Assembly: GCA_038093975.1 (NCBI GenBank)
Contig: JBBPTG010000460.1
Span: 1-12,056, forward strand
Length of the DNA: 12,056 nt
Direction: 5' to 3'
Source of the DNA: Chalciporus piperatus
Taxonomy: Eukaryota > Basidiomycota > Agaricomycetes > Boletales > Boletaceae
In this document: one piece after another, positions 1 through 12,056 of the stretch
Position numbering within the stretch: the stretch's first letter is position 1
Layout: each line of letters begins with the position of its first letter
Program-made: the position numbers and the translations under genes
Notes under the pieces: generated by a model
What the model saw: the letters and a program-made list of their open reading frames with translations, nothing else
Databases searched by the model: none
What the model was told of the DNA's origin: nothing

Positions 1-1145
1 GGCATCTGCCGGTTGTCAAACGGCAGGGAAGACTCAACATATTGTTGCGAGTATGGGTCCCACATAACAACTTGTCTCTGACGCGGCCTGTGGGGTTTTG
101 GGCACGCGTTTGCAAAATGACCTGGCTGGTCGCAATTGAAACAGTTTCCCCGAACGGGGGATCTTGGCATTTGCTGTGCCGACAGATCCATCGGGGCTCC
201 ACGACCAGGCTGTGTACCTGTGGGAGTGAAACGGGGGGCCGCATACGGAACAGGGGGACGTGGGAGCGGACGGGATGCAATTGGATAACGAGGGGGGAGA
301 TACGGATATGACGATGAAGGCCTTGGCGCAGTCGCGGGTGCCTGACGAACTGGAGCACCGCGTTCAACGACGATTCGTTCGAAAGTGCGACCCAACTTTC
401 GGTAGGTATCGATCGTGTTGGTCAGATTCTGCTCATCAACATTGGTGTTGATTTGCGCCTGATAATAGATTTTGTAATCTATTGCCTTTTTTAGAAGCTC
501 TTTGGCATGAGCGTCTTCTATCTCCGATTCCGCTTTCAACAATTCAAACTCCTGAAGGAAGATGTCCACAGGTTTCCCAGCCTGCTTCAATGCTTCCAAT
601 TTCCTGAGACTCTCATGAGCGAGGACGTCAATCTGGAAATATGTTTTGAGGAGATGTGAAAATATTGTCCACGTGGGCCATGCTAGTAGTCCCAAAGGTT
701 CTCGAACCGGTTCCTCTGCTGGTTCGCCTTCTACTGGTGGCGGTGGTAACAGTTCATATCGAGACCATTTTTCTATTGTCATCTGGGCGAACCCAGCCGC
801 CTTTCCTTCTAACCGTGAGAGTACGGCGAGGCATCGAACCTTGTTGTTTTTCCATGTGTGGACGGACTGCCAGGCGTTAACCTGCGCCCACCACAACCGG
901 AACTTGGTGCGGTCACCATCCCATTTTCCCGGGTCGGCAACTTTTTTGGACACGGAGTCCGAATTGTCTGATAAGAGCGCCTTCAGAGCGGCGGTGAGAG
1001 CAGCGATGGGATCTGCTGGATCTGCCATCGGAGTTTCGGGGCGGGGAGTAGAGGGATTTGAACTTTCGGATGAGGAAGGGAAGTGACGTGGGGGGGATCT
1101 GTAACCCTGATCTTGTGGTTCTAGATCTAAGTACTCTGCTGACAT
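1..1145 (-). CDS. gag: gag of element 2, 3'-truncated by the window edge
   Basis: Open reading frame of 381 codons without a stop, running off the left edge. The start is the ATG at 1145; an in-frame TAA lies 2 codons upstream, and a second ATG at 1028 (residue 40) is an alternative. Residues 1-40 are Ser/Pro-rich. Residues 70-260 resemble a Ty3/Gypsy gag (retrotransposon gag) domain, with a KWDGDRTKFRLWW start and a helical LRKLEALKQAGKPVDIFLQEF segment. A Pro-rich linker (262-310) leads to the chromovirus gag motif GTQPGRGAPMD (310-320), identical in 11 residues to element 1 gag. A CX2CX4HX4C zinc knuckle follows at 335-348. The product would form the capsid and bind genomic RNA. Plus-strand reading frames over this span have no recognisable domains and are shadows. 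Pol presumably follows outside the window. Confidence 0.93.
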   Translation of the reverse strand, partial: MSAEYLDLEPQDQGYRSPPRHFPSSSESSNPSTPRPETPMADPADPIAALTAALKALLSDNSDSVSKKVADPGKWDGDRTKFRLWWAQVNAWQSVHTWKNNKVRCLAVLSRLEGKAAGFAQMTIEKWSRYELLPPPPVEGEPAEEPVREPLGLLAWPTWTIFSHLLKTYFQIDVLAHESLRKLEALKQAGKPVDIFLQEFELLKAESEIEDAHAKELLKKAIDYKIYYQAQINTNVDEQNLTNTIDTYRKLGRTFERIVVERGAPVRQAPATAPRPSSSYPYLPPRYPIASRPLPRPPVPYAAPRFTPTGTQPGRGAPMDLSAQQMPRSPVRGNCFNCDQPGHFANACPKPHRPRQRQVVMWDPYSQQYVESSLPFDNRQM

Positions 1146-1532
1146 ATATCCTTACTGAACCCTATCTTCCAAAGGTTCTCTGGGGATGACAGACACGAGG
1201 ACGAAGAAAATATTTTTTCGAGCGGAGGTAATACCTGCGACGCTTATCGGAATCTCGGCAGACCTTCTGAGGAATTTTCCCAAGATCTGATTTGATTTTA
1301 CACATACACTACTCTTGAACTTCTATTTTTCGAGCAGCAGCAAAAGCTATCGTAATACAGGATACTATTTTTTATTGTTTTCTATTTTTTGTACCTCGGC
1401 GGTGCTGCCGGCTTACGTTGCTACGTATGACTCAGCCAAGGGGGCGGCGACGCGCTTTTCCCTTGTCGTCCTTCGCAATTGGGCACGATCCCAATCCGGT
1501 CTTCGAACAAATACTATAGTATGGAGGATAAC
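1146..1532 (-). other. gag-proximal part of the element 2 leader
   Basis: This 387-nt stretch is the 5' leader of element 2 next to gag, interrupted at 1532 by element 1; the rest resumes at 9474. I see no convincing coding sequence in it. On the minus strand it has a single ATG before gag (1305-1303), which sits inside GTATGT, a classical 5' splice donor. The short reading frame from that ATG (about 40 codons) shows no domain. A TGACTCA bZIP-type site is at 1428-1434. Confidence 0.7.
1528..1532. repeat. Target site duplication, left copy (ATAAC)
   Basis: ATAAC immediately precedes the 5' LTR of element 1 and is repeated exactly at 9469-9473 after the 3' LTR. A 5-bp duplication is the usual product of Ty3/Gypsy integrases and fixes the element boundaries. 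Confidence 0.96.
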
Positions 1533-1652
1533 TGTTACGAACGCTCCATTCCTTATCCTAATCATCCCTACATTCCATTACGCTTACTAGGTTTCTCTTC
1601 GTTTCTTGGACTTAGTCGTTTCACTTTCTCTTTTGATATCTTATCTTATCGT

Positions 1653-1815
1653 GTCACGTGACTTACTTACATAAGCTAGGTCTAGACCTTCGCTTACTAC
1701 TGATGACTCACCGCTCACTCGTCAGCATCAGTCAGCATTACTCATCATATGACTCACGCTTACTCATTCCGCAGTAGAGCTAGTTACGCTATTGGCTAGT
1801 AGTCAGTATGAGTCA
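1653..1815 (+). promoter_or_regulatory. U3 cluster of bZIP (TGACTCA), E-box and GATA-type motifs
   Basis: TGACTCA occurs at 1704-1710 and 1750-1756, and its complement TGAGTCA at 1809-1815; this is the Gcn4/AP-1 family site. A 10-bp palindrome GTCACGTGAC (E-box core CACGTG) is at 1653-1662. TTATCTTATC just upstream (1641-1650) reads as paired GATA sites on the other strand. All are repeated in the 3' LTR, offset by 7461. Binding is inferred from motif identity only. Confidence 0.5.
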
Positions 1816-1870
1816 TACCCAGTCACCTACGATAAGGTTTAGCCATAACATGTACAAACATTGACAATAG

Positions 1871-1916
1871 TATATAAACCCGGGTCGACAAGCACTGGAC
1901 TCCCCAGTCTTGTTCT
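1871..1916 (+). promoter_or_regulatory. TATA box and inferred transcription start with self-primer, element 1
   Basis: TATATAA at 1871-1877 lies 35 nt upstream of AGTCTTGTTCT (1906-1916). That 11-mer is the exact reverse complement of the sequence 2 nt after the LTR. In Tf1-type self-priming the first nucleotides of the RNA pair with the PBS, so the complementarity places the RNA 5' end at about 1906. The TATA spacing supports this independently. Confidence 0.8.
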
Positions 1917-1971
1917 CCTGGAGTTTCCTCATCGAACCTCAGCCAAGTTCATCGGCTCGCTATTGTCTAGT

Positions 1972-2040
1972 GTGAGTCTTAGCTCTTAGTTGAGTTGAGT
2001 CGTTTCATTAGAACAAGACTAATATTTTCTTTTGTCTTAG
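1972..2040 (+). other. Candidate intron 1 (69 nt) spanning LTR end and PBS
   Basis: Donor GTGAGT at 1972, branch-like CTAAT at 2018-2022, and a T-rich tract ending TCTTAG at 2040. Removal would delete the end of U5 and the entire PBS. Spliced RNA could be translated but could not prime on itself. The signals match fungal consensus, but splicing is not shown. Confidence 0.45.
2010..2020 (+). other. Self-priming primer binding site, element 1
   Basis: AGAACAAGACT starts 2 nt after the LTR end at 2007 and is a perfect 11-nt complement of 1906-1916. No TGG-type tRNA primer site is present at this position. The 2-nt gap is what integrase end-trimming in Ty3-type elements would need. Confidence 0.85.
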
Positions 2041-2091
2041 CGTCTCGTCGCTACCACACGTGTCTTGTACGCCACTCCATCGTTGATCACA

Positions 2092-3364
2092 AGTGGGTAC
2101 TGCGCTGCTTGTACGCGCCTTGTCATAGCTGACCTTGTTTTTGAATAAGTGTCTAGCAACCCCGCCGCATCTCAGCGCGCCGTGTCCCCTGTCCCTTCCA
2201 TCCAGTGGAACGGGATACTTGATCTCCCCGCCGTCGAGACCAACCCCGACTTCGCCAACGTCATCGCGAAGCTCGGAAACGCTGTAGAGGCATATCCAGC
2301 CTTTACCAACATCATCGCGGATCTCGAGCGAGAGAACGCTCGCATCCAGGAAGAAGTCGCTCAGACCCGAGCACTAGTCGAAGAAGAACGCAGGAGGATC
2401 ATCGAGGAATACTCAGTGCCTATCGCGCCAAGGCCTGATTACTCCGACCTATACGTCGATTGGTTGGAAGAACCGGTAATACCCCCTTACCCACGTCACG
2501 TATCAACTGTTAACCCCGCCGATCTACAGATCGACCGTCGTCGCTATCCATCACTTCCGCCTATCGAGGCTATTCGGGCACCGTCGCCGCCCAACCCCCA
2601 GCAGATACTAGCCGACGCCTTCGGCGTTGAAGAATTATACTACCGTGCCTCCTCCATCCCCAGAGCCCCAACCCCGCTCGCGGAGCCCGTTGATTGGACT
2701 GCCGTCGACGAGGATCTTCTTGCTCTTCAACACCAATTCCCCATTGGAGTCTCTGGTCGTACGGAAAGTTTCCGCCGCGCTCTCTATCACACGCTTATAT
2801 CCCCGGCAGGTGAGAAGTCGATTCGAGAGAACATTGACGCTCGGGTACGTCAACGCCGACGAAGCGACAGGCTACTTAGAGGTATCCCTGAGAACGCCGG
2901 TACTCGTATTAAGGAGAGAGTATCAACCCCGCGTCCTACTCGTCGCACTCGCCGCCCTAAGCCTCTCGTCCCTCTTAGGAAGATTCGCCCAGTACAGCTT
3001 ACAGGCCTTCCTATTACTTTCATACCTCATCTTCGGCCACGTAATTCTCTCAGACGACCTTCGCGTTACCTTTGATTTTGCATACATCCTCGTATCTCAC
3101 AGGAATCGTCCAGTAGCACTACCTACTCCTCCCCCTTCCCCTGTTGTATCACAAGCAGAGTTAGAAGAAGACGAAGAATTACCAGGATTAGTAGAGTCTG
3201 ATAGTGAAGACGAAGGAGGACTAAGAGAGACAAACGTACCAGGAGTGCAATTGTACTATCCCGCGCCTCATTCCATCAGAAGAAGCATTCCACCACCACC
3301 TTATCAAAGAGACGTCCCTGCTTCGTTATCAGGAGAAACCCTTGAAGGATCTCAGGAAATCTGA
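2092..3364 (+). CDS. ORF0, accessory ORF upstream of gag, probably spliced; unknown function
   Basis: Unrecognised protein. Frame 1 is open from a TAA at 2146-2148 to 3075 but contains no ATG. Its first codon would be GTG at 2149. A candidate intron at 2093-2149 joins A2092 to TG at 2150, giving ATG TCT AGC in frame. A second candidate intron (2810-2870) moves reading into frame 2, which stays open to the TGA at 3362. The joined model has 384 residues: a coiled-coil-like charged helix (DLERENARIQEEV onward), a long Pro-rich region, a hydrophobic stretch encoded at 2933-3049 suitable for one or two membrane helices, then a Pro-rich and acidic tail (EELPGLVESDSEDE). The alternative is frame 1 to 3075 with a very basic end, or a 1-nt frameshift near 3073. 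Codon use favours frame 1 before 2810 and frame 2 after about 3100. The gag ATG follows 41 nt after the stop. Confidence 0.6.
2093..2149 (+). other. Candidate intron 2 (57 nt) whose removal creates the ORF0 ATG
   Basis: Donor GTGGGT at 2093, perfect CTRAY branch sequence CTGAC at 2129-2133 (branch A 17 nt before the 3' end), a T-rich tract, and acceptor AATAAG at 2149. Joining leaves A2092 followed by TG at 2150, an ATG in frame with ORF0 and with A at -3 (context ACA). Length is typical of basidiomycete introns. Unspliced RNA has no ATG here. Confidence 0.55.
2810..2870 (+). other. Candidate intron 3 (61 nt) inside ORF0
   Basis: Donor CAG|GTGAGA at 2810 and acceptor GCGACAG at 2870, length 61 nt (1 mod 3). 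This converts frame 1 into frame 2 exactly as needed to keep ORF0 open to 3364. The branch candidate TTGAC (2834-2838) is weak and rather distant from the acceptor. A 1-nt indel near 3073 is the competing explanation. Confidence 0.4.
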
Positions 3365-3405
3365 AATAAATCTAGTTTTATCCCTTCCGTTCTAGTGCGT
3401 CAAGA

Positions 3406-4608
3406 ATGTCGGTTCTCGCCCCAGACTTAGCAGCTGCCTTAACAGGCATTCTCGCACATCGTGACGCGTCCATACGGGACCTTGGAACGCAATTGAGACT
3501 CGCGTTAGAAACCATGACGGATCAGCTTACCAACGCTCAAAGGGTAAATCAAAATCTAAACAATAATATCTTGCAGCTTGAAGCGCAAGTACAAGCCATC
3601 CAAGTGCCTGGCGCAATACCAGCTCCTACGGTCGGACCCAGCGGACCTAAACTATCCAAAATCGTCAAAGACCCAGGAGACTACGACGGATCTAGAGGAA
3701 GGAAGTTCGAAGAATGGTGGACAAGAGTACGTGCATGGATAGATGAAAACAACACCGTGTTAACCGGAATGACGGCGATCAGAGCTATCCTTAGTCGAAT
3801 GACAGGAGGAGACGCCGCTACTTTCTCACGAGCCATGACACACGACATCTTGGAAAATGGAACCACGTATACTTCCGCCGAATTCCATAAACGAATCACC
3901 GATCAATTCCGCTCGGGTAACGAAGTGGAATATCACCGCAATCAGATCAAGAATCTGAAACAAGGCAAGATGTCTATGGAGAAATTCCTTACCACATTCC
4001 AGACTCATCGCCTCATGGACGATTGGAGTGACGCCCGACACATCGAACTTCTAGAGCTGAACGCAGATCCAGAAATCACACATCGGATCTTTATGGATAA
4101 GGGACGGTTCGACAAATATGACACATACGTCGAAGAGCTACGCCTCCTTGCAGGAAGGAAACAGCTTATCTCCATGATCAAGACAGGAACCGCAGGTGAT
4201 ACCCCGCGATATAAATATACCAACACGGGCACACAACCGGGTCGTGGTGCCCCAATGGATATAGGTTCTGCCGAAATCGAAGAAGGAGAAATTGTGGAAG
4301 AAGAAGAAGAAGCACCATCTGCCGTAAAGGCGGCCACAAGCAATTCTAAAGAGAAGAAACAAGGAAATTGTTGGAACTGTGGGAAACCGGGACATCCGAA
4401 ACAGCAATGTCCGGTACCTAGTACCAAATGCAAGGGCTGTGGTTGGTCAAGAGGCGAACACAAACGTGCCTGCAAACTTCAGAAGAGACAGGTAAGAGAA
4501 CTGTCTACCGAATCTAGCGCTCTCGAAGGCCGTTCATTCGACGAAATGAAGGCTTACTTCTACGATATGAAAGATATCGAAATGAAGGGAAAAGGCAAAG
4601 CGGCCTGA
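3406..4608 (+). CDS. gag: Gag of element 1 (400 aa)
   Basis: Capsid/nucleocapsid protein of the retrotransposon. The ATG at 3406 is the first ATG downstream of the inferred RNA start. Residues 21-65 form a probable coiled coil. The gag domain spans about 85-255 (DYDGSRGRKFEEWW, later FHKRITDQFRSGNEVEYHRNQI). The shared motif GTQPGRGAPMD is at 275-284 or so, followed by an acidic run (EEGEIVEEEEEA). A canonical CX2CX4HX4C knuckle is at 322-335, and a variant CX2CX6HX3C unit at 342-356. Length is normal for a chromovirus gag and the frame is intact. The last codons carry a -1 slippery heptamer, so most ribosomes should stop at the TGA (4606-4608) and a fraction should shift into pol. It could still support trans-mobilisation even though pol is damaged. 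Confidence 0.95.
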   Translation: MSVLAPDLAAALTGILAHRDASIRDLGTQLRLALETMTDQLTNAQRVNQNLNNNILQLEAQVQAIQVPGAIPAPTVGPSGPKLSKIVKDPGDYDGSRGRKFEEWWTRVRAWIDENNTVLTGMTAIRAILSRMTGGDAATFSRAMTHDILENGTTYTSAEFHKRITDQFRSGNEVEYHRNQIKNLKQGKMSMEKFLTTFQTHRLMDDWSDARHIELLELNADPEITHRIFMDKGRFDKYDTYVEELRLLAGRKQLISMIKTGTAGDTPRYKYTNTGTQPGRGAPMDIGSAEIEEGEIVEEEEEAPSAVKAATSNSKEKKQGNCWNCGKPGHPKQQCPVPSTKCKGCGWSRGEHKRACKLQKRQVRELSTESSALEGRSFDEMKAYFYDMKDIEMKGKGKAA

Positions 4609-4630
4609 ATGATCTGGGCAAACGGACCGC
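4587..4630 (+). promoter_or_regulatory. Programmed -1 frameshift signal (GGGAAAA plus stem) between gag and pol
   Basis: In gag phase the heptamer reads G GGA AAA (4587-4593), a valid X XXY YYZ site. After a 6-nt spacer, GCGGCC (4600-4605) pairs with 4624-4625 and 4627-4630, leaving one bulged A and an 18-nt loop. The pol frame is -1 relative to gag and is open from 4518, overlapping the gag end by 91 nt. The gag stop falls in the loop. Confidence 0.7.
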
Positions 4631-5399
4631 AACTAACTCGTTAGGAAAATCTGTAAACTATTCACACAGTCAAACGGGGTCTCATGTTGATCATGAGCTT
4701 GGCCTGGACTCTAGTCAGGTGCTTAATTCCGTTTCCATAATCCGATATCTTTCCGAAAACCCACTGGCAGGACCACGTTTCATTCGCACAACAGACCGAG
4801 AATTGAAACTATCTACTTCCATCGCTTCGCAACGACTCCCTTCTGCTTTCACACGAGCAGAGGCACTCTTTGATTCAGGAGCTAACGCTATCTTCGTTGA
4901 TCGGAGATGGGCTGATAAAATCAGATTACCCCTCGTGCAACTCAGACATCCACTTACGGTATACAACGTGGACGGAACCCATAACTCCGCTGGACAGATA
5001 ACACACTGTGCGGAAATCATTATCCATTTCAACGGACATCGTGAGAAGGCCATTGCGGAAGTCACTGACCTCGGAAAGAATCAGGTGATACTAGGTTACG
5101 CATGGTTGAAGCAACACAATCCGGAGATAGATTGGAACAAAGGAACGGTCCACATGACACGTTGTCCTTGGTCTTGCTCCGTCTTACGAGATAAACCACC
5201 ATTCGCACGCCAACTTGATGATGAAGAACGAAACTCTCTTCGTCATATCAACGCCGCAAAGAGGGAGGTACCTGAACCAAAAATGGAAAAGACTCCGGAA
5301 GAACTTGTTCCAAAAGAATATCACAAGTATATTCACCTGTTCAAGAAAAAGGAATCTGAACGCATGCCAACCCGTAAGTCCGTGGGATCATGCAATTGA
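4594..5399 (+). pseudogene. pol: pol segment 1: protease, ending at a frameshift
   Basis: Aspartic protease part of pol, reached by -1 frameshifting from gag. There is no true ATG at its start; the frame is open from 4518, and GTG at 4719 is only an internal codon. The catalytic motif is ALFDSGANAIF, with the aspartate codon at 4872-4874. The characteristic QVILGYAWLKQHNPEIDW block follows, then a linker to RT. The frame runs through KKKESERMPTRK and then leaves the expected RT start, ending at TGA 5397-5399. The conserved continuation (PWDHAIDLKD) is in frame 1 from 5380. This implies one extra nucleotide at about 5379, possibly the T that completes GTAAGT. It could be mutation or assembly error. 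Programmed frameshifting at this point is unlikely because the family normally keeps PR and RT in one frame. Confidence 0.88.
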
Positions 5400-6609
5400 C
5401 TTGAAAGACACCTACAAGCCGAAAAAGGGTCGTCTTATCCCACTCTCTGTCACGGAACAAGAAGAAGTCAGCGCATTTATTGATGATCAGCTCAAGAAAG
5501 GATACATTCGTCCTTCCAAATCTGAACAGACTTCTCCCGTGTTCTTTGTTCCTAAGAAAGATGGCAAGAAACGCATGGTCCAAGATTACCGTTATCTAAA
5601 TGAACACACGGTGAAAAACAACTACCCACTACCCCTCATTTCCCAATTAGTTGATAAACTGAAAGGCGCAAAATTATTTACCAAAATGGACTTGCGCTGG
5701 GGATACAACAACATCCGCATCAAAGAAGGCGATGAATCTAAAGCCGCATTCGTGTGCTTCCGTGGCGCCTTCGAACCCTTAGTCATGTACTTCGGATTAT
5801 GCAATTCTCCTGCGACATTTCAAACCATGATGAACGACATCTTCTCGGATATGGAAGACGCCGTTGTTGTCTACATTGATGACATCATGATCTTTACCAA
5901 ATCCGACGACCCTGCTGTCCATGCCAAGGTAGTCAGAGAAGTTCTTCGTCGCTTAGAAGAGAATGACCTCTTCGTCAAACCAGAGAAATGTGTCTTCCAT
6001 ACCAAAGAAGTAGAATTCTTGGGAATGACAATTACTCCCGAAGGAATCAGGATGGATGACGATAAGGTCAAGGCAATCACCGAATGGCCAACTCCGACAA
6101 ATGTCAGAGGTGTCAGAAGCTTCCTTGGGTTAGCAAACTTCTATCGCCGCTTCATTCAGGATTACGCCCAAGTGGCTAGACCCTTGAATGACCTTACCAA
6201 GAAGGATACGAAATTCACATGGGAAGATGCGCAGAAGAACGCCTTCAACACGTTGAAACAGAAGTTCATCACCGCCCCCATACTCGCTTTCCCAGACAAT
6301 GACAAACGCTTCCGTCTAGAATCGGATGCATCTAATTACGCCACGGGTGCTGTTCTATCTATAGAACAAGGAGACAAATGGCATCCCGTCGCATTCTCTT
6401 CCCATTCCATGTCACCGGAAGAACGCAACTACCCCATTGCGGATAAGGAGATGCTAAGCGTTATCAGAAGTCTAGAACAATGGAGACATTATCTGGAAGG
6501 TTCTAAGCACGAATTTGAAATCTGGAACGATCACGCGAACCTTCAGTTCTTCATGACTCGCCAAGATCTAAACCGTCGCCAAGCACGTTGGTCTCAATAT
6601 CTTAGCTGA
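5380..6609 (+). pseudogene. pol: pol segment 2: reverse transcriptase and RNase H, with premature TGA
   Basis: RT starts at PWDHAIDLKD and includes SPVFFVPKKDGKKRMVQDYRYLN, FTKMDLRWGYNNI (first catalytic Asp at 5689-5691), FGLCNSPATFQ and the active site YIDD at 5872-5883. RNase H follows with conserved acidic residues: Asp at 6325-6327 (LESDAS), Glu at 6448-6450 (DKEML) and Asp at 6529-6531 (WNDH). All catalytic residues are present. The frame ends at TGA 6607-6609 in the block WSQYLS-stop-FNFKWLHKAG. Homology resumes in the same frame after the stop, so this is a single nonsense change. CGA to TGA by C-to-T is a simple origin, because many relatives carry a charged residue here. Integrase is therefore separated from RT. 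Confidence 0.92.
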
Positions 6610-8328
6610 TTCAATTTCAAATGGTTACACAAGGCAGGTTCCCAAATGGGGAAAGCCGATGCCTTATCGAGAAGAGAAGATCACGCAATCGGTATCGAAG
6701 CAGATAACAAAGCTGTCCTTGTAATACCTCCGGACAGAATAGCTGCCACGTCAACTGTTCAACTCTCAACCGATTCCGATCTGATCAAGGACAAAATCAG
6801 AAAAGCAACCTTCAAAATACGTGAGACAGAAGTCATGAAACTCTGCAAAGAACACGGCATTTGTGAAGAGTCTGATGGGATTCTGATTGACAAGAAAGGG
6901 AGACTATATGTTCCTGAAGAAGAAGATCTCCGCATGGAGATTATTCGACTTCATCACGACACACCCCTTGCTGGGCATCCCGGATATGAAAAGACAATTG
7001 AATTGCTACAGCGCAGTTATACCTGGCCAGGAATGGCTACGCTCGTAAAAGACTACGTCTCACGCTGTGACAGATGTGCACGTTTCAAAGGGATAAACTA
7101 TGCTCCTTCTGGAAAGCTCCGCCCCCTTGAAGTTCCGGATCTTCCCTGGGAACATATCTCTGCAGATTTCACTACCGATCTGCCACTCTCGAATGGATTC
7201 GATTCTATCCTTGTCGTCGTTGACAGATTCTCCAAAGAAGTCGAATTCATTCCCTGCAACAAGACGGTTACCGCTCTCGACACTGCCCATCTTTACTTAA
7301 CCCATGTATGGAAACATCATGGACTTCCTAAAACCATAATATCGGACCGAGGTCCGCAATTCGCATCCCAAGTGATGAAAGACATATGCAAACGTCTTGG
7401 CATTACGCCCAAACTCTCCACCGCCTTTCACCCCCAAACTGATGGACAAACTGAACGTATGAATCGAGATCTACAACAGTATCTCCGTCTATTCACATCA
7501 GAAAAACAAGAAGAATGGACTGATTGGTTACCAATTGCGCAATTCTCATATAACTCGAAAAAGCAAGCTTCTACATCCAAGGCACCTTTCAACGTCACGC
7601 ACACATATTCTCCAAGGATGGGAATAGAAAACTACATGTCTAAAGCACCCGCTGCTACGGACTTTGTTGACACGCTTGCCAACACGTTGAAAGAAACCAA
7701 GGATAACATAATAGAAGCTCAGAAGCGTATGAAAGCGCAAGCCGACAAACACCGTTCTGAGTCACCATCTTACGAAGTTGGTCAGAAAGTCTGGTTGTCT
7801 ACAGCTAATCTCCGCCTGGCGCAGAGATCTAAGAAACTTTCCCCACGATGGTTGGGCCCTTACGAAATCACAACCCTGATTGGACGGAACGCACTACGAT
7901 TGAAGCTTCCGCGTACCATGAAAATTCACCCCGTCGTTAATGTTTCACGTGTCAAACCATATAAGGACAGGTTACGGAAGCAAACCGTTGATAAACCTGG
8001 GCCTGTGATTGTGACAGAAGACAGAGATGATGAATATGAGGTGGATTACATCGTTGATTCTCGTTTACAAGGAAAAACCCTAAAATACCTCGTGCACTGG
8101 AAAGGCTATGCGGAATCTGATCGGACATGGGAACCACGATCGAATCTCAAGAATGCACAGAATGCAATAAGGGAATTCAACAAGATACATCCGTCCGCAC
8201 CACGATTCCTTCGCATGTCACGGAGTCTATTCGAATCACTCTTCCAGCCGTATGACAACCTAACGAGTCAGGTGGATAATGGACAAATCAATTGGTTGAA
8301 TACCGTGCCGGATACCGAAAAGGTATAA
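6610..8328 (+). pseudogene. pol: pol segment 3: integrase with C-terminal chromodomain
   Basis: This continues the pol frame after the TGA; MGKADALSRR (from 6646) ends the RNase H-IN tether. The integrase zinc-binding HHCC has histidines at 6955 and 6976 and cysteines at 7066 and 7075. The catalytic core has Asp 7165-7167 (SADFTTD), Asp 7345-7347 (SDRGPQF) and Glu 7453-7455 (GQTERMN), with the D-35-E spacing intact. A GPY/F-type module (SPRWLGPYEI) and IHPVVNVSRVKPY follow. A chromodomain is encoded at about 8026-8190 (EYEVDYIVDSR, YLVHWKGY, TWEP), with all aromatic-cage positions seemingly present. In chromoviruses it can direct integration toward modified histone tails. A 40-residue tail ends at 8328. 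The segment itself is intact but cannot be made as part of Pol without readthrough of 6607. Confidence 0.93.
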
Positions 8329-8392
8329 GAAGACTGATGATTGACGGTCTTCATTCTCACGGTTTCTCTTCCACAAACCACCATCATCACCA

Positions 8393-8959
8393 ATGGATCT
8401 CAACGACGTCTACGCTTGGGAAAATGTCCTCCGCGATATATTCATTCGCAACTTCACTAGGGATCGAGGTAACTTTGTCCTCTCCCTCCTCTTTATAATC
8501 TTCGTCATCTGCAACGGGTGGATCCTCCGCATGCTCATCCCCTCCCTCCTCGCTTTCATCACCATCGTCGTCGTTACCATCGCCATTCAGTACCTCATGT
8601 TCGCCCGGATGATCGTGACTAGACGGTCCACGTCTATCGAGGTTAACTGGGACTGGACGACAAGGTGGATGAAACTCGTCGTATGGCACCCGGATTTGAG
8701 CAAGTGGGACAACGTGATGGAGGTACAACAGGAGAATCCTGATCAACAGGAATGGCCCACAAACTGGCCTGATCTCGCTCAACCTCCTATTGCTGACCCT
8801 GCACTCGTAGGTGCTCCCCACCCTATTCCTGTCGATGAAAACGATGGTAACCCATTCGAGCCACCAGTAACCTGGACGAACAACAACCTTCAGGTCGCTA
8901 CTGCTCCGCCAGCAAATGGAGTACCGTGGATGAATCAAGGTCCACTCATCGAAGTGTGA
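8393..8959 (+). CDS. Small two-helix membrane protein in the env position of element 1 (188 aa)
   Basis: Intact ORF between pol and the 3' LTR, with ATG at 8393 (G at +4), 64 nt after the pol stop and in a different frame. The N-terminal 27 residues are polar. Two hydrophobic segments follow at about 28-46 and 48-70 (NFVLSLLFIIFVI; LLAFITIVVVTIAIQYLMF), likely a membrane hairpin, then basic RMIVTRR. A 110-residue Trp- and Pro-rich tail follows (WDWTTRW, WHPDLSKWDN, later PP-rich), predicted to lie on one side of the membrane. There is no clear signal peptide, furin-type site or fusion peptide, so it does not look like a standard Env. I do not recognise the family. How it is translated is unclear; a spliced or subgenomic RNA, or reinitiation, would be needed. 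The antisense frame over the same span lacks any domain and is probably a shadow. Confidence 0.7.
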   Translation: MDLNDVYAWENVLRDIFIRNFTRDRGNFVLSLLFIIFVICNGWILRMLIPSLLAFITIVVVTIAIQYLMFARMIVTRRSTSIEVNWDWTTRWMKLVVWHPDLSKWDNVMEVQQENPDQQEWPTNWPDLAQPPIADPALVGAPHPIPVDENDGNPFEPPVTWTNNNLQVATAPPANGVPWMNQGPLIEV

Positions 8960-8980
8960 TCGTCTAGGAATACGATCCAT

Positions 8981-8993
8981 AGAGAGGGGGTAG
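8981..8993 (+). other. Polypurine tract of element 1
   Basis: AGAGAGGGGG followed by TAG abuts the TG of the 3' LTR at 8994. This is the expected plus-strand primer. Element 2 has the same GGGGGTA-purine arrangement before its LTR. Confidence 0.85.
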
Positions 8994-9468
8994 TGTTACG
9001 AACGCTCCATTCCTTATCCTATTCATGCCTACATATCATTACGCTTACTAGGTTCCTCTTCGTTTCTTGGACTTAGTCGTTTCACTTTCTCTTTTGATAT
9101 CTTATCTTATCGTGTCACGTGACTTACTTACATAAGCTAGGTCTAGACCTTCGCTTACTACTGATGACTCACCGCTCACTCGTCAGCATCAGTCAGCATT
9201 ACTCATCATATGACTCACGCTTACTCATTCCGCAGTAGAGCTAGTTACGCTATTGGCTAGTAGTCAGTATGAGTCATACCCAGTCACCTACGATAAGGTT
9301 TAGCCATAACATGTACAAACATTGACAATAGTATATAAACCCGGGTCGACAAGCACTGGACTCCCCAGTCTTGTTCTCCTGGAGTTTCCTCATCGAACCT
9401 CAGCCAAGTTCATCGGCTCGCTATTGTCTAGTGTGAGTCTTAGCTCTTAGTTGAGTTGAGTCGTTTCA
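8994..9468 (+). repeat. 3' LTR of element 1 (475 bp)
   Basis: Copy of 1533-2007 with 5 substitutions, at 9022, 9027, 9035, 9036 and 9055, all in the first 62 bp. The remaining 413 bp look identical. It carries the same TATA box, bZIP sites and E-box. Confidence 0.97.
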
Positions 9469-9473
9469 ATAAC
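9469..9473. repeat. Target site duplication, right copy (ATAAC)
   Basis: Exact repeat of 1528-1532 directly after the CA of the 3' LTR. Confidence 0.96.
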
Positions 9474-9795
9474 AGGAACGGGGCACTAAAGGCTGGCCCA
9501 AAAGAATAAAATAGCCAGATGGCGAATGTGTGACGTCAACGGGTGATCACACGAACCCGGATCGTGTCTACAGTCAGAGGGTTGGCGCGTGAGCGGACCC
9601 CAAGACGTCTCGAACGATCAAAAAGCCCCTAGTGCACTATGGGGAACAGCAACGTTATCCAATTTATGACGGCGGACGGCCGTATATGCAGCAGTGGGTG
9701 GAGTTGCGGTCTCCTGTGTGTCACGTACACAAACGGTCTTCTTGACCAACTCTTTAGCCCTAGAGTCCAGGCGGTGTTTTCAAGTCTAATCCAAG
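9474..9795 (-). other. LTR-proximal part of the element 2 leader
   Basis: This 322-nt stretch continues the leader found at 1532-1146. Before insertion of element 1 the leader was about 709 nt from LTR to gag. No coding sequence is evident. The minus strand has no ATG anywhere from the inferred transcription start (9907) through this stretch. Confidence 0.75.
9783..9793 (-). other. Self-priming primer binding site, element 2
   Basis: On the minus strand TGGATTAGACT lies 2 nt after the LTR end (9796) and is an exact 11-nt complement of AGTCTAATCCA at 9907-9897 in the same LTR. The geometry matches element 1: CA end, 2-nt gap, 11-nt pairing. It begins with TGG like tRNA-type sites, but the match to its own RNA start is complete. 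Confidence 0.82.
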
Positions 9796-10476
9796 TGTTA
9801 TGACTAGGTCACAACACAGCGGGGACTTAAGGCAACACTAGGCCTTTGCGAAGGAATATGCTGAGTACTAAAGCTTAATTGCGGTGAAGCAACAAATGGA
9901 TTAGACTGGGGTCTGTGATAAGTACAGGGCTACTTATATACTATTGAGAAGTGCGCACAGACCAACAGCCGAATAAGGAAATCATAAAGGAAAAGATAAA
10001 TAAGGTAAATGTTACGCTTGTACCGGGTAGGTCAAAGCGTAGACACAAAAGCCTAGTCAAAGACAAGGGTTTCAAGGTAGCCTAACGATGGGATGTCCAC
10101 GTTAAGGCCTAGCGTCCGTTCAAGAGTGGGACGGTGACTCTCAGAGGGTTCAAGGAAGCGAGGAATGACCAAGCTAGATTGCGTAGGTCTAAGTTAAGGT
10201 TACAGGAGGAAATTCGAGGGTTTATATAAGTAGAGAAACGAGTTAAGGGCAGGCATGGAAGTGGTTGGAATGTATAAGAACAAGCTATGACGAATAGGAA
10301 TGAGTCATGCTTGGTAAGTGTGCGAGTCAGCGATGACGAAGTATGGAATGTGAAAGAACATCGAAGAACATCCGCTGACTAAAGCAAGCAAGAAATAAGA
10401 GGCCTAGGCAGGACTCGAACCAGCAACTAGGACTTAGTACAAGGAGAGAAGAGGAAAGAATAGAACGATCGTAACA
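9796..10476 (-). repeat. LTR of element 2 (681 bp), shared by two internal regions
   Basis: On the minus strand it begins TGTTACGATCG at 10476, directly after a G5 polypurine tract, and ends ATAACA at 9796, directly before the PBS. The termini form a short inverted repeat (TGTTA/TAACA). Boundaries are inferred from PPT and PBS because no second copy is in the window. U3 is 10476-9908 and R-U5 is 9907-9796 (112 nt, against 102 nt in element 1). A TGAGTCA site is at 10301-10307. No gene is seen in it; a tRNA B-box-like GGTTCGAGTCC (minus strand, near 10411-10421) is not part of a complete tRNA. Confidence 0.82.
9897..9940 (-). promoter_or_regulatory. TATA box and inferred transcription start with self-primer, element 2
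   Basis: TATATAA on the minus strand at 9940-9934 lies 33 nt before AGTCTAATCCA (9907-9897), the exact complement of the PBS. As in element 1, this places the RNA 5' end at about 9907. Confidence 0.77.
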
Positions 10477-10486
10477 TTACCCCCGT
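10477..10486 (-). other. Polypurine tract of element 2
   Basis: On the minus strand ACGGGGG then TAA abuts the TG of the LTR at 10476. It is short and pyrimidine-interrupted, but the G5 core and 3-nt spacer match the element 1 tract. Confidence 0.7.
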
Positions 10487-10521
10487 ATTAGAATCAAGTC
10501 ATCGACGAAGATAAAAACTAG

Positions 10522-11691
10522 TCAAATGTTTAACCCGTAATGTCCTGGGGAACCGGTCATGTTTGCATATCCAACATCGTCGGTCGGATCATCTCCGTCA
10601 TAGAGAGTAGCGTCGTCGTCGTCGTCGCGTGAATAAGTCTGACCCGAGATGCGGGTATAGAGTGGAGGGGGGCGTCGAGCAGCTCGATTGGTATTGGTTG
10701 ATCGGCGGGAACGGGAAGAGGGTGCAACAGGTGGCGTGGTTGTATGTCTCTGTCCACGCCTAAGTGGGCAACGACCTTGAATGTGACCGGGTGCCCAGCG
10801 GAAGCACGTGGGACACTGGTATACGGGACAGTGGACACGTATATGGCCCAGTCGGTGACATACGAAGCAGGCGTCGTGGTACTGGGGATGTGAGGTGGAT
10901 AGAGGTAGGGTGCCAGTCTGTTGTCGTTGTGAGGTAATGTGGTTTCGTTCTGCACGAAAGAACACTGCTTCCTCTTCATCGTTCAAAGGGGAGCTGGACG
11001 CGGAAGGCGTCGACGAGGGAAGAGATGAGGTAGAAACTCCGATGACAGGGACGGGGGAATGAGCCGCAGAGGCGGATTCTCTGAGGTAGCGGTCTAGGTC
11101 TTCCAGAAACTCCGGCATCCGTAGCTCGTAGAGAGCAATGCTGAGGTTGGTAATTAGATCACCGTGGATATTGCGGATGGAGGCAGCTTCTGAATGAGCT
11201 TGGTGAACCGTTGTCAGGGAAGGGGAAAGATTGGCAAGACGGGATGCTTGCAGGTAGGCGCGGTAAAGGGCGAAGAGGGGCGACCCCAGATCAAGGTGGG
11301 CGCCGATGGGTACAGAGAGGCGTGAGTCTAGTAAGAATTGGGACATGCGATCCATGACGGCGTTATTCATCAACTCGTCGCGAAGACGATGGGCGGCGAG
11401 TGGCAACTCGATGGGTGAAACTCCGACAGTGGGAGTGGCGGCGATATGAGTAGGGACGTCTAGATCTTCCTGCAAGATCGGCCATCCAGCGGAGTTTAAT
11501 GGGAGACCGGTGGTGTTCCATCCAGCTTCAGCGATGGTTGGGCTAGGGGGTTCTGGAGAGGAGGGACGAGTGGGTTGAATAGGTAGAGAACGAATAGGTA
11601 AACCAGGGGGGTAAGTAGGGGAAGAAGAAGAACGAGACAAAGAAGAGATGGAAGACATAGTAGTAGACGAAGGGGTGGTAGGAGCGGACAT
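10522..11691 (-). CDS. CCHC zinc-knuckle ORF between pol and 3' LTR of element 2 (389 aa)
   Basis: Intact ORF on the minus strand, with ATG at 11691 and A at -3, starting 4 nt after the pol stop. The first 60 residues are Ser/Thr/Pro-rich. Residues 95-205 look helical. A low-complexity Ser/Pro linker leads to two zinc knuckles: CX2CX4HX4C at 275-288 (CFVCHRLGHIRVHC) and CX2CX6HX4C at 293-308. A basic Arg-rich region (312-341) and an Asp-rich tail with a run of five Asp (356-360, from a GAC repeat) follow. The layout resembles a second nucleocapsid-like, nucleic-acid-binding protein, but there is no gag capsid motif. I have a general impression of similar CCHC proteins in mushroom genomes and cannot name a family. 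The 4-nt spacing suggests termination-reinitiation from pol. Confidence 0.85.
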   Translation of the reverse strand: MSAPTTPSSTTMSSISSLSRSSSSPTYPPGLPIRSLPIQPTRPSSPEPPSPTIAEAGWNTTGLPLNSAGWPILQEDLDVPTHIAATPTVGVSPIELPLAAHRLRDELMNNAVMDRMSQFLLDSRLSVPIGAHLDLGSPLFALYRAYLQASRLANLSPSLTTVHQAHSEAASIRNIHGDLITNLSIALYELRMPEFLEDLDRYLRESASAAHSPVPVIGVSTSSLPSSTPSASSSPLNDEEEAVFFRAERNHITSQRQQTGTLPLSTSHPQYHDACFVCHRLGHIRVHCPVYQCPTCFRWAPGHIQGRCPLRRGQRHTTTPPVAPSSRSRRSTNTNRAARRPPPLYTRISGQTYSRDDDDDATLYDGDDPTDDVGYANMTGSPGHYGLNI

Positions 11692-11695
11692 GGTT

Positions 11696-12056
11696 TCAGT
11701 GGCGGGTTTTGCGTCTGACAGAAGATGGGGATCTTGGGGAAGAGGGGAAGGCGGACGGGTGAGCCTTTTTATAGTTTTCTAGGATGTCCTTGGCGTGTGT
11801 GAGGTCTGTTTCTTTAAGCCAGCGGTCTTCATCGGCCGTATATCCTTTCCAGCGGACTAGGTAAGAGTGGCGTCCGGAGAAACTCCGGTGTCGGAGAATC
11901 TTTTCGATTTCATATTCTTCTTCGCCTTCTATCAAGTCAGGTGGTGGAGCCGGGAAGTTCGGTCCGTGGACGGGGTTTTCGCGATAGGGCGATAACAGAG
12001 AAGCGTGGAACACGGGGTGAATCCTCCATGTCTGTGGCAGACGGAGTTTGTAGGAT
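11696..12056 (-). CDS. pol: pol C-terminus of element 2: integrase tail and chromodomain, 5'-truncated by the window edge
   Basis: This is the last 119 codons of pol, entering from the right edge and ending at TGA 11698-11696. It begins with the integrase C-terminal block YKLRLPQTWRIHPVFHASLLSPYREN, typical of chromoviruses; the valine at 12013 is an internal GTG, not a start. An acidic linker leads to a chromodomain encoded at about 11917-11756 (EYEIEKILRHR, YLVRWKGY, DRWLKETDL). The usual TWEP is replaced by RWLK, so the third cage tryptophan seems kept while the flanking residues differ. A Ser/Pro/Arg tail ends the protein. The frame is intact in the visible part. Confidence 0.93.
   Translation of the reverse strand, partial: SYKLRLPQTWRIHPVFHASLLSPYRENPVHGPNFPAPPPDLIEGEEEYEIEKILRHRSFSGRHSYLVRWKGYTADEDRWLKETDLTHAKDILENYKKAHPSAFPSSPRSPSSVRRKTRH

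Follow-up and report, generated by a model that had tools for sequence, protein, structure and literature searches.

A candidate intron that would assemble the start codon of an extra reading frame in a fungal Ty3/gypsy retrotransposon

Splicing in known retroelements and the element studied here

In the env-type splicing of retroviruses and plant elements, the extra ORF lies 3' of pol and the acceptor is far downstream, and in cellular genes a start codon can be divided by an intron. Among plant env-like elements, Bagy2 is an example in which splicing yields a separate mRNA for the extra ORF (PMC7264820, available portion). The element described here resembles these systems in that a separate spliced mRNA would serve an extra ORF, but its candidate 57-nt intron precedes gag and would build the AUG itself. 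Splicing of the barley element BARE1 removes 104 nt from the end of gag, which creates a stop codon so that Gag alone is produced, and attempts to amplify DNA copies of the spliced RNA failed (PMC3735527, available portion). Both BARE1 and our element would alter their product by alternative splicing of one RNA, but BARE1, as described in that portion, assembles no start codon. For PEG10, the available part of the source reports a rare splice variant that adds an upstream ATG as well as an additional CUG start (PMC2800197). Here the likeness is a splice variant with a new upstream ATG and alternative starts; the PEG10 ATG, according to the same part, is intact within exon 1b, whereas the ATG described below would be assembled across a junction. 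A search of the open-licence literature, covering splice-assembled start codons, retroelement splicing and fungal elements whose leaders carry additional ORFs or introns, showed no such case among the papers listed. Start-codon assembly by splicing would be a new form of alternative splicing in retroelements.

We analyzed 12,056 nt of DNA from Chalciporus piperatus (assembly GCA_038093975.1, contig JBBPTG010000460.1, positions 1-12,056, forward strand), hereafter the window, and searched for further copies in the genome of 35.5 Mb (484 contigs). The window holds an element with the following parts:

1528-1532 and 9469-9473: 5' and 3' copies of the target-site duplication ATAAC, 5 bp, read from the sequence
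1533-2007, plus strand: 5' LTR, 475 nt, TG...CA, from pairwise alignment, ends fixed by TG/CA and the duplication
1906-1915, plus strand: putative RNA 5' end, AGTCTTGTTC, within the LTR and complementary to the primer-binding site
1972-2040, plus strand: candidate intron 1, 69 nt, with GTGAGT, CTAAT and TTAG, running across the end of the LTR and over the primer-binding site
2011-2020, plus strand: primer-binding site GAACAAGACT, adjoining the LTR, complement of 1906-1915, present in 45/45 copies
3406-4608, plus strand: gag, its ATG being the first after 1850
4518-8328, plus strand: pol region, with protease, RT, RNase H, integrase, SH3_Tf2-1 and chromodomain
8994-9468, plus strand: 3' LTR, 475 nt, from pairwise alignment

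The LTR pair with ATAAC at either side marks an LTR retrotransposon. The gag product matches the Pfam families Retrotrans_gag and zf-CCHC, each under its curated cut-off, contains 14 methionines in 400 residues, and found three relatives (33-42% identity) in a protein search. Across 4518-8328 the Pfam order is RVP_2, RVT_1, RT_RNaseH, rve, SH3_Tf2-1 and Chromo, although the pol reading frame is broken in the window copy. With this domain order and its C-terminal chromodomain, the element classes by sequence as a chromodomain Ty3/gypsy retrotransposon (chromovirus) of Tf1/Tf2-like type. A scan of IMG/VR with part of the RT gave no match. In Tf1-type self-priming, a site beside the LTR pairs with the RNA 5' end. 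The RNA of our element likely begins near 1906, because GAACAAGACT beside the LTR complements AGTCTTGTTC inside it; the latter is unchanged in 43 of 45 copies. The element resembles Tf1/Tf2-type chromoviruses in its chromodomain, in the SH3_Tf2-1 end of its integrase and in an LTR-adjacent site complementary to the putative RNA 5' end. It differs from them in two extra ORFs, ORF0 and ORFx, placed 5' of gag, in an ATG-free leader of 1.5 kb and in candidate leader introns, a combination shown by none of the papers listed in the literature search.

An ORF of 188 codons lies 3' of pol (8393-8959), with an N-terminal half that is hydrophobic by eye and no Pfam family above its cut-off. The element is flanked by what look by eye like parts of other retroelements (3-1151 and 10522-12055, minus strand): on the left a seeming gag-like ORF with a zinc knuckle, and on the right an apparent pol end with an ORF behind it that carries cysteine motifs.

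Splice signals ahead of ORF0 and their conservation

The features central to the analysis lie between the 5' LTR and gag:

2092, plus strand: final base of the exon, which would supply the A of the assembled start codon; A in 45/45 copies
2093-2149, plus strand: candidate start-making intron, 57 nt, with GTGGGT at 2093-2098, CTGAC at 2129-2133 and an AAG end
2149-3075, plus strand (2150-3075 after splicing): ORF0, frame 1, 308 codons opened by A2092 + TG, without internal methionine
2612-3364, plus strand: ORFx, frame 2, a second methionine-free ORF that overlaps ORF0 and is constrained from about 2700

The first-pass annotation proposed that splicing may create the start codon of ORF0. The letters on which it relied are all present: A2092, the GTGGGT donor, the CTGAC branch, the acceptor AG (2148-2149), the TG that opens the next exon (2150-2151) and the length of 57 nt. 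Equally, ORF0 is read from the sequence as lacking an ATG of its own, its frame opening with GTG at 2149 directly after an in-frame TAA (2146-2148). Removing 2093-2149 joins A2092 to T2150-G2151, and the resulting ATG opens ORF0 in frame 1 with an A (A2089) at -3. It would be the only start codon between the likely RNA start (1906) and the gag ATG (3406). Only with the A/TG layout can a GT-AG intron create an AUG that is absent from the unspliced RNA, because AT/GT and AG/ATG junctions already hold an ATG.

The candidate intron has the GTRNGT donor, CTRAY branch, terminal AG, fitting distances (17 nt from the branch A to the intron end) and host-like length of a fungal spliceosomal intron. Its description as a textbook fungal intron is too strong at the acceptor, which is AAG rather than YAG; YAG is the usual fungal acceptor, and AAG is weaker. 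At a host tubulin locus, gaps between exon matches hold two similar introns, of 79 and 83 nt; the scan required GTRNG and CTRAY and therefore speaks for the existence of introns of this type, not for their frequency. Only 7 of 20,000 dinucleotide shuffles of 1906-2330 gave an A/GTRNGT...CTRAY...AG/TG intron leading into the ORF0 frame, rising to 284 of 20,000 when the branch requirement was dropped, and the real intron is the sole match to the pattern in the window in every frame and on both strands.

The first-pass annotation had suggested an alignment of family copies as a check, and we aligned 45 separate copies from the one genome (30, 10 and 5 from different genome searches, the search giving the 30 having scored 40 of 368 candidates). 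Donor, branch and acceptor proved to be conserved: no copy (0/45) departs from A2092 plus GTGGGT or from CTGAC, and AAG/TG is retained in all 45, one having an extra A ahead of it. Variable sites number 0 of 17 signal positions compared with 12 of 43 other intron positions (Fisher p = 0.013). A genome pattern built from the flanks only found 59 places, partly overlapping the 45 aligned copies, with 48-78 nt between the flanks and, as read from the list, the same signals.

Eleven more places were fetched, comprising diverged copies or fragments (L071-L080) and a sister element (L081). The diverged L071, L072, L077 and L079 keep 17/17 signal sites, as against 34-37 of 43 other intron sites. In the fragments L075 and L076, which share about 27 ORF0 codons, donor and branch are kept and AG/TG is lost; in L078 the upstream part is replaced, with branch and AAG/TG retained. 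L073 and L074 do not span the intron, and L080 aligned the same as L072 and was not counted separately.

We also sought copies from which the intron was missing. None was found across the genome with exact flanks and 0-16 nt between them, a pattern that copies with altered flanks would escape, and this exact-flank search therefore gives no fossil of a spliced RNA. Candidate intron 1 bears on this result. Among the 45 copies its donor is GTGAGT in 44 and GTAAGT in one, its branch CTAAT in 40 and CTGAT in five, and its TTAG end invariant (45/45). Because this intron contains the primer-binding site, RNA spliced there could not self-prime. Removal of the primer site by candidate intron 1 would agree with, and does not prove, this being the reason why intron-less copies are absent.

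Coding constraint and the ATG-free leader

To examine coding constraint we used 40 nearly complete copies, omitting five that are truncated or interrupted (L020, L029, L061, L064 and L070). Over the ORF0-only stretch 2152-2611, pN/pS is 0.29 in the ORF0 frame versus 1.53 and 1.02 in the other frames. Over 3077-3361 it is 0.13 in the ORFx frame versus 1.86 and 1.36 in the others. In the overlap, frame 1 gives 0.37 and frame 2 gives 0.57, and sliding windows place the onset of frame 2 constraint near 2700. Both ORFs are under purifying selection, which is strong on ORFx, and, because pN/pS is low in each ORF's own frame, both proteins seem to be made. ORF0 had no match in Pfam, among solved structures (searched with the ORF0 alignment) or in a protein collection, and its structure prediction has a mean pLDDT of 51. 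ORFx had no match in Pfam; its middle appears hydrophobic.

The splice switch proposed below does not account for ORFx. Among all AG/TG sites listed in the leader, none yields a frame 2 ATG near 2700; the GTRNG-type donors within ORF0 (2759, 2810 and 2845) sit downstream of the onset of constraint; and by eye no near-cognate start in about 2690-2720 is conserved in good context. ORFx may be entered by a frameshift, a non-AUG start or an unseen intron.

The plus strand has no ATG in any frame from 1850 to 3406; elsewhere in the window, successive ATGs are at most 244 nt apart on the plus strand and 572 nt on the minus strand. Shuffles of the leader (3,000) gave a mean of 11.4 ATGs and a minimum of four, compared with the observed zero. 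The stretch from RNA start to gag is likewise free of ATG in 36 of the 40 copies with an alignable gag ATG, and in 34 of 37 when the gag start had to match more strictly. The four copies with leader ATGs are L011, L014, L023 and L066; the five copies omitted from the codon analysis have no alignable gag ATG, and L071 was left out of the scan. The old copy L072 retains the intron, has a stop in its ORF0 frame and carries ten ATGs downstream of its RNA start, of which about eight precede gag. Once its methionine-less protein is given, the ORF0-only part shows no further ATG depletion (synonymous shuffles: mean 0.33 ATG, probability of zero 0.67); for the ORFx-only part the probability of zero is 0.13. 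The depletion signal consists of the absent methionine codons and the total count, because synonymous shuffles of the methionine-less ORF0 seldom make an ATG. Avoidance of ATG across all three frames fits scanning of an intron-retained RNA.

Recurrence in related elements and a proposed product switch

The sister element L081 carries A/GTAGGT...CTGAC...CAG/TG over 53 nt. It agrees with the window family at 15 of 17 signal sites but at no more than 19 of the 43 remaining intron positions, and its two signal changes, giving GTAGGT and CAG, remain inside the splice consensus. A gag near L081 is 54% identical to that of the window; from their positions, the L081 leader and this gag would be parts of one interrupted element.

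A gag search revealed a second family, with roughly 47-56% identity over most of the gag match and more than 20 matches (104 of 362 candidates scored). We fetched five of its leaders, among 38 ORF0 matches. In four of the five, the 1,081 nt from the last LTR ATG to the gag ATG are ATG-free, and L088 has one ATG. A count of zero over the 1,028-nt leader of L085 is not extreme alone (shuffle mean 4.4, minimum 0). All five leaders contain an ORF without methionine, 262-264 codons long from stop to stop, and in 5/5 copies fetched a 50-nt candidate intron, A/GTGCGT...TTAAC...TAG/TG, leads in frame into an ORF of 258-260 codons. The strict pattern missed it because its branch, TTAAC, is not CTRAY; without a branch requirement, 90 of 20,000 shuffles gave such an intron. 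A pattern including donor and acceptor found 19 second-family places, which do not test conservation because both signals were written into the pattern, and an exact-flank genome pattern found no intron-less second-family copy. DNA similarity between the leaders of the two families is limited to 35 nt of LTR. The second-family ORF0 is unrelated to that of the window by profile comparison and had no match in the protein collection. The A/TG layout is therefore common to all three element types: window family, sister and second family.

The splice signals and their conservation, the ATG depletion, the coding constraint on ORF0 and the recurrence in the second family are all read from the DNA. 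They bear on three other explanations. The one that survives best, though we consider it unlikely, accepts the start-making intron and has the gag mRNA arise when the LTR donor (1971/1972) is joined, in one long splice, to the conserved TTCTAG ending at 3395. Such a splice would yield a short leader, and AGTG at 3394-3397 (TAG/TG, 3393-3397), with a pyrimidine-rich stretch before it and just 5' of the gag ATG, is present in 40/40 copies. However, the window copy has no CTRAY branch near this acceptor, and a long splice would not require the leader to be ATG-free in all three frames; if 3395 were joined to A2092 instead, a short out-of-frame ORF would by eye enter gag.

Somewhat less probable still is that unspliced RNA is translated into ORF0 from a non-AUG codon, whether GUG at 2149 or some other near-cognate, with the intron-like letters incidental. 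GTG follows the TAA in frame in 45/45 copies, and the retrotransposon-derived gene PEG10 offers a precedent for such a start (PMC2800197, available portion). The conservation of GTG adds nothing, however, because AG/TG itself contains it. A non-AUG start also leaves unaccounted for the frozen A/GTGGGT and CTGAC upstream amid varying neighbors, the changes at the L081 donor and acceptor that stay inside the splice consensus, and the identical layout ahead of the unrelated second-family ORF0. The simpler rival named in the first-pass annotation, an original ATG at 2149 lost to GTG in the copy or lineage, needs a single-letter difference but is refuted within this genome and has next to no chance of being right, as ATG stands at 2149 in 0/45 aligned copies and 0/59 flank-pattern places, and L081 and the second family also have AG/TG.

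Our preferred reading is that a short host-type intron serves the element as a product switch, yielding gag when retained and ORF0 when spliced, and we put its probability at roughly 85%. The two products had been anticipated by the first-pass annotation, and the conservation of the signals, the second family and the 36/40 ATG-free leaders lend this support. RNA would start near 1906 and present no AUG for 1,500 nt. With the 57-nt intron retained, ribosomes would scan to the gag AUG at 3406; with it removed, A2092 and U2150-G2151 would form the only AUG upstream of gag and open ORF0. If candidate intron 1 (1972-2040) were also spliced, the RNA would be usable as mRNA and not for copying. What we infer is that the intron is spliced, and only in part of the RNA, that scanning ribosomes arrive at gag, and what role ORF0 would have.

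A broader picture, to which we give an even chance, is of a fungal Ty3/gypsy group with a two-way switch based on start-codon splicing. Retained RNA would supply Gag-Pol and the RNA genome, and spliced RNA the ORF0 AUG; in the window's family the neighboring intron would take the primer-binding site with it, and the spliced RNA could then never be copied. The switch would have been kept, or have arisen twice, across unrelated ORF0s, and a leader of about 1-1.5 kb would have been stripped of ATGs, in the window's family over two overlapping coding frames.

Retroelements must share one RNA among several proteins and the genome. If the proposed switch is true, the choice rests on three nucleotides united by splicing, and the AUG-free leader is its footprint. 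The roles of ORF0 and ORFx become a question, each being under selection. ORF callers miss such hidden genes because the start codon is lacking; a long ATG-free leader, a methionine-free ORF and A/GT...AG/TG together form a signature by which they may be searched for.
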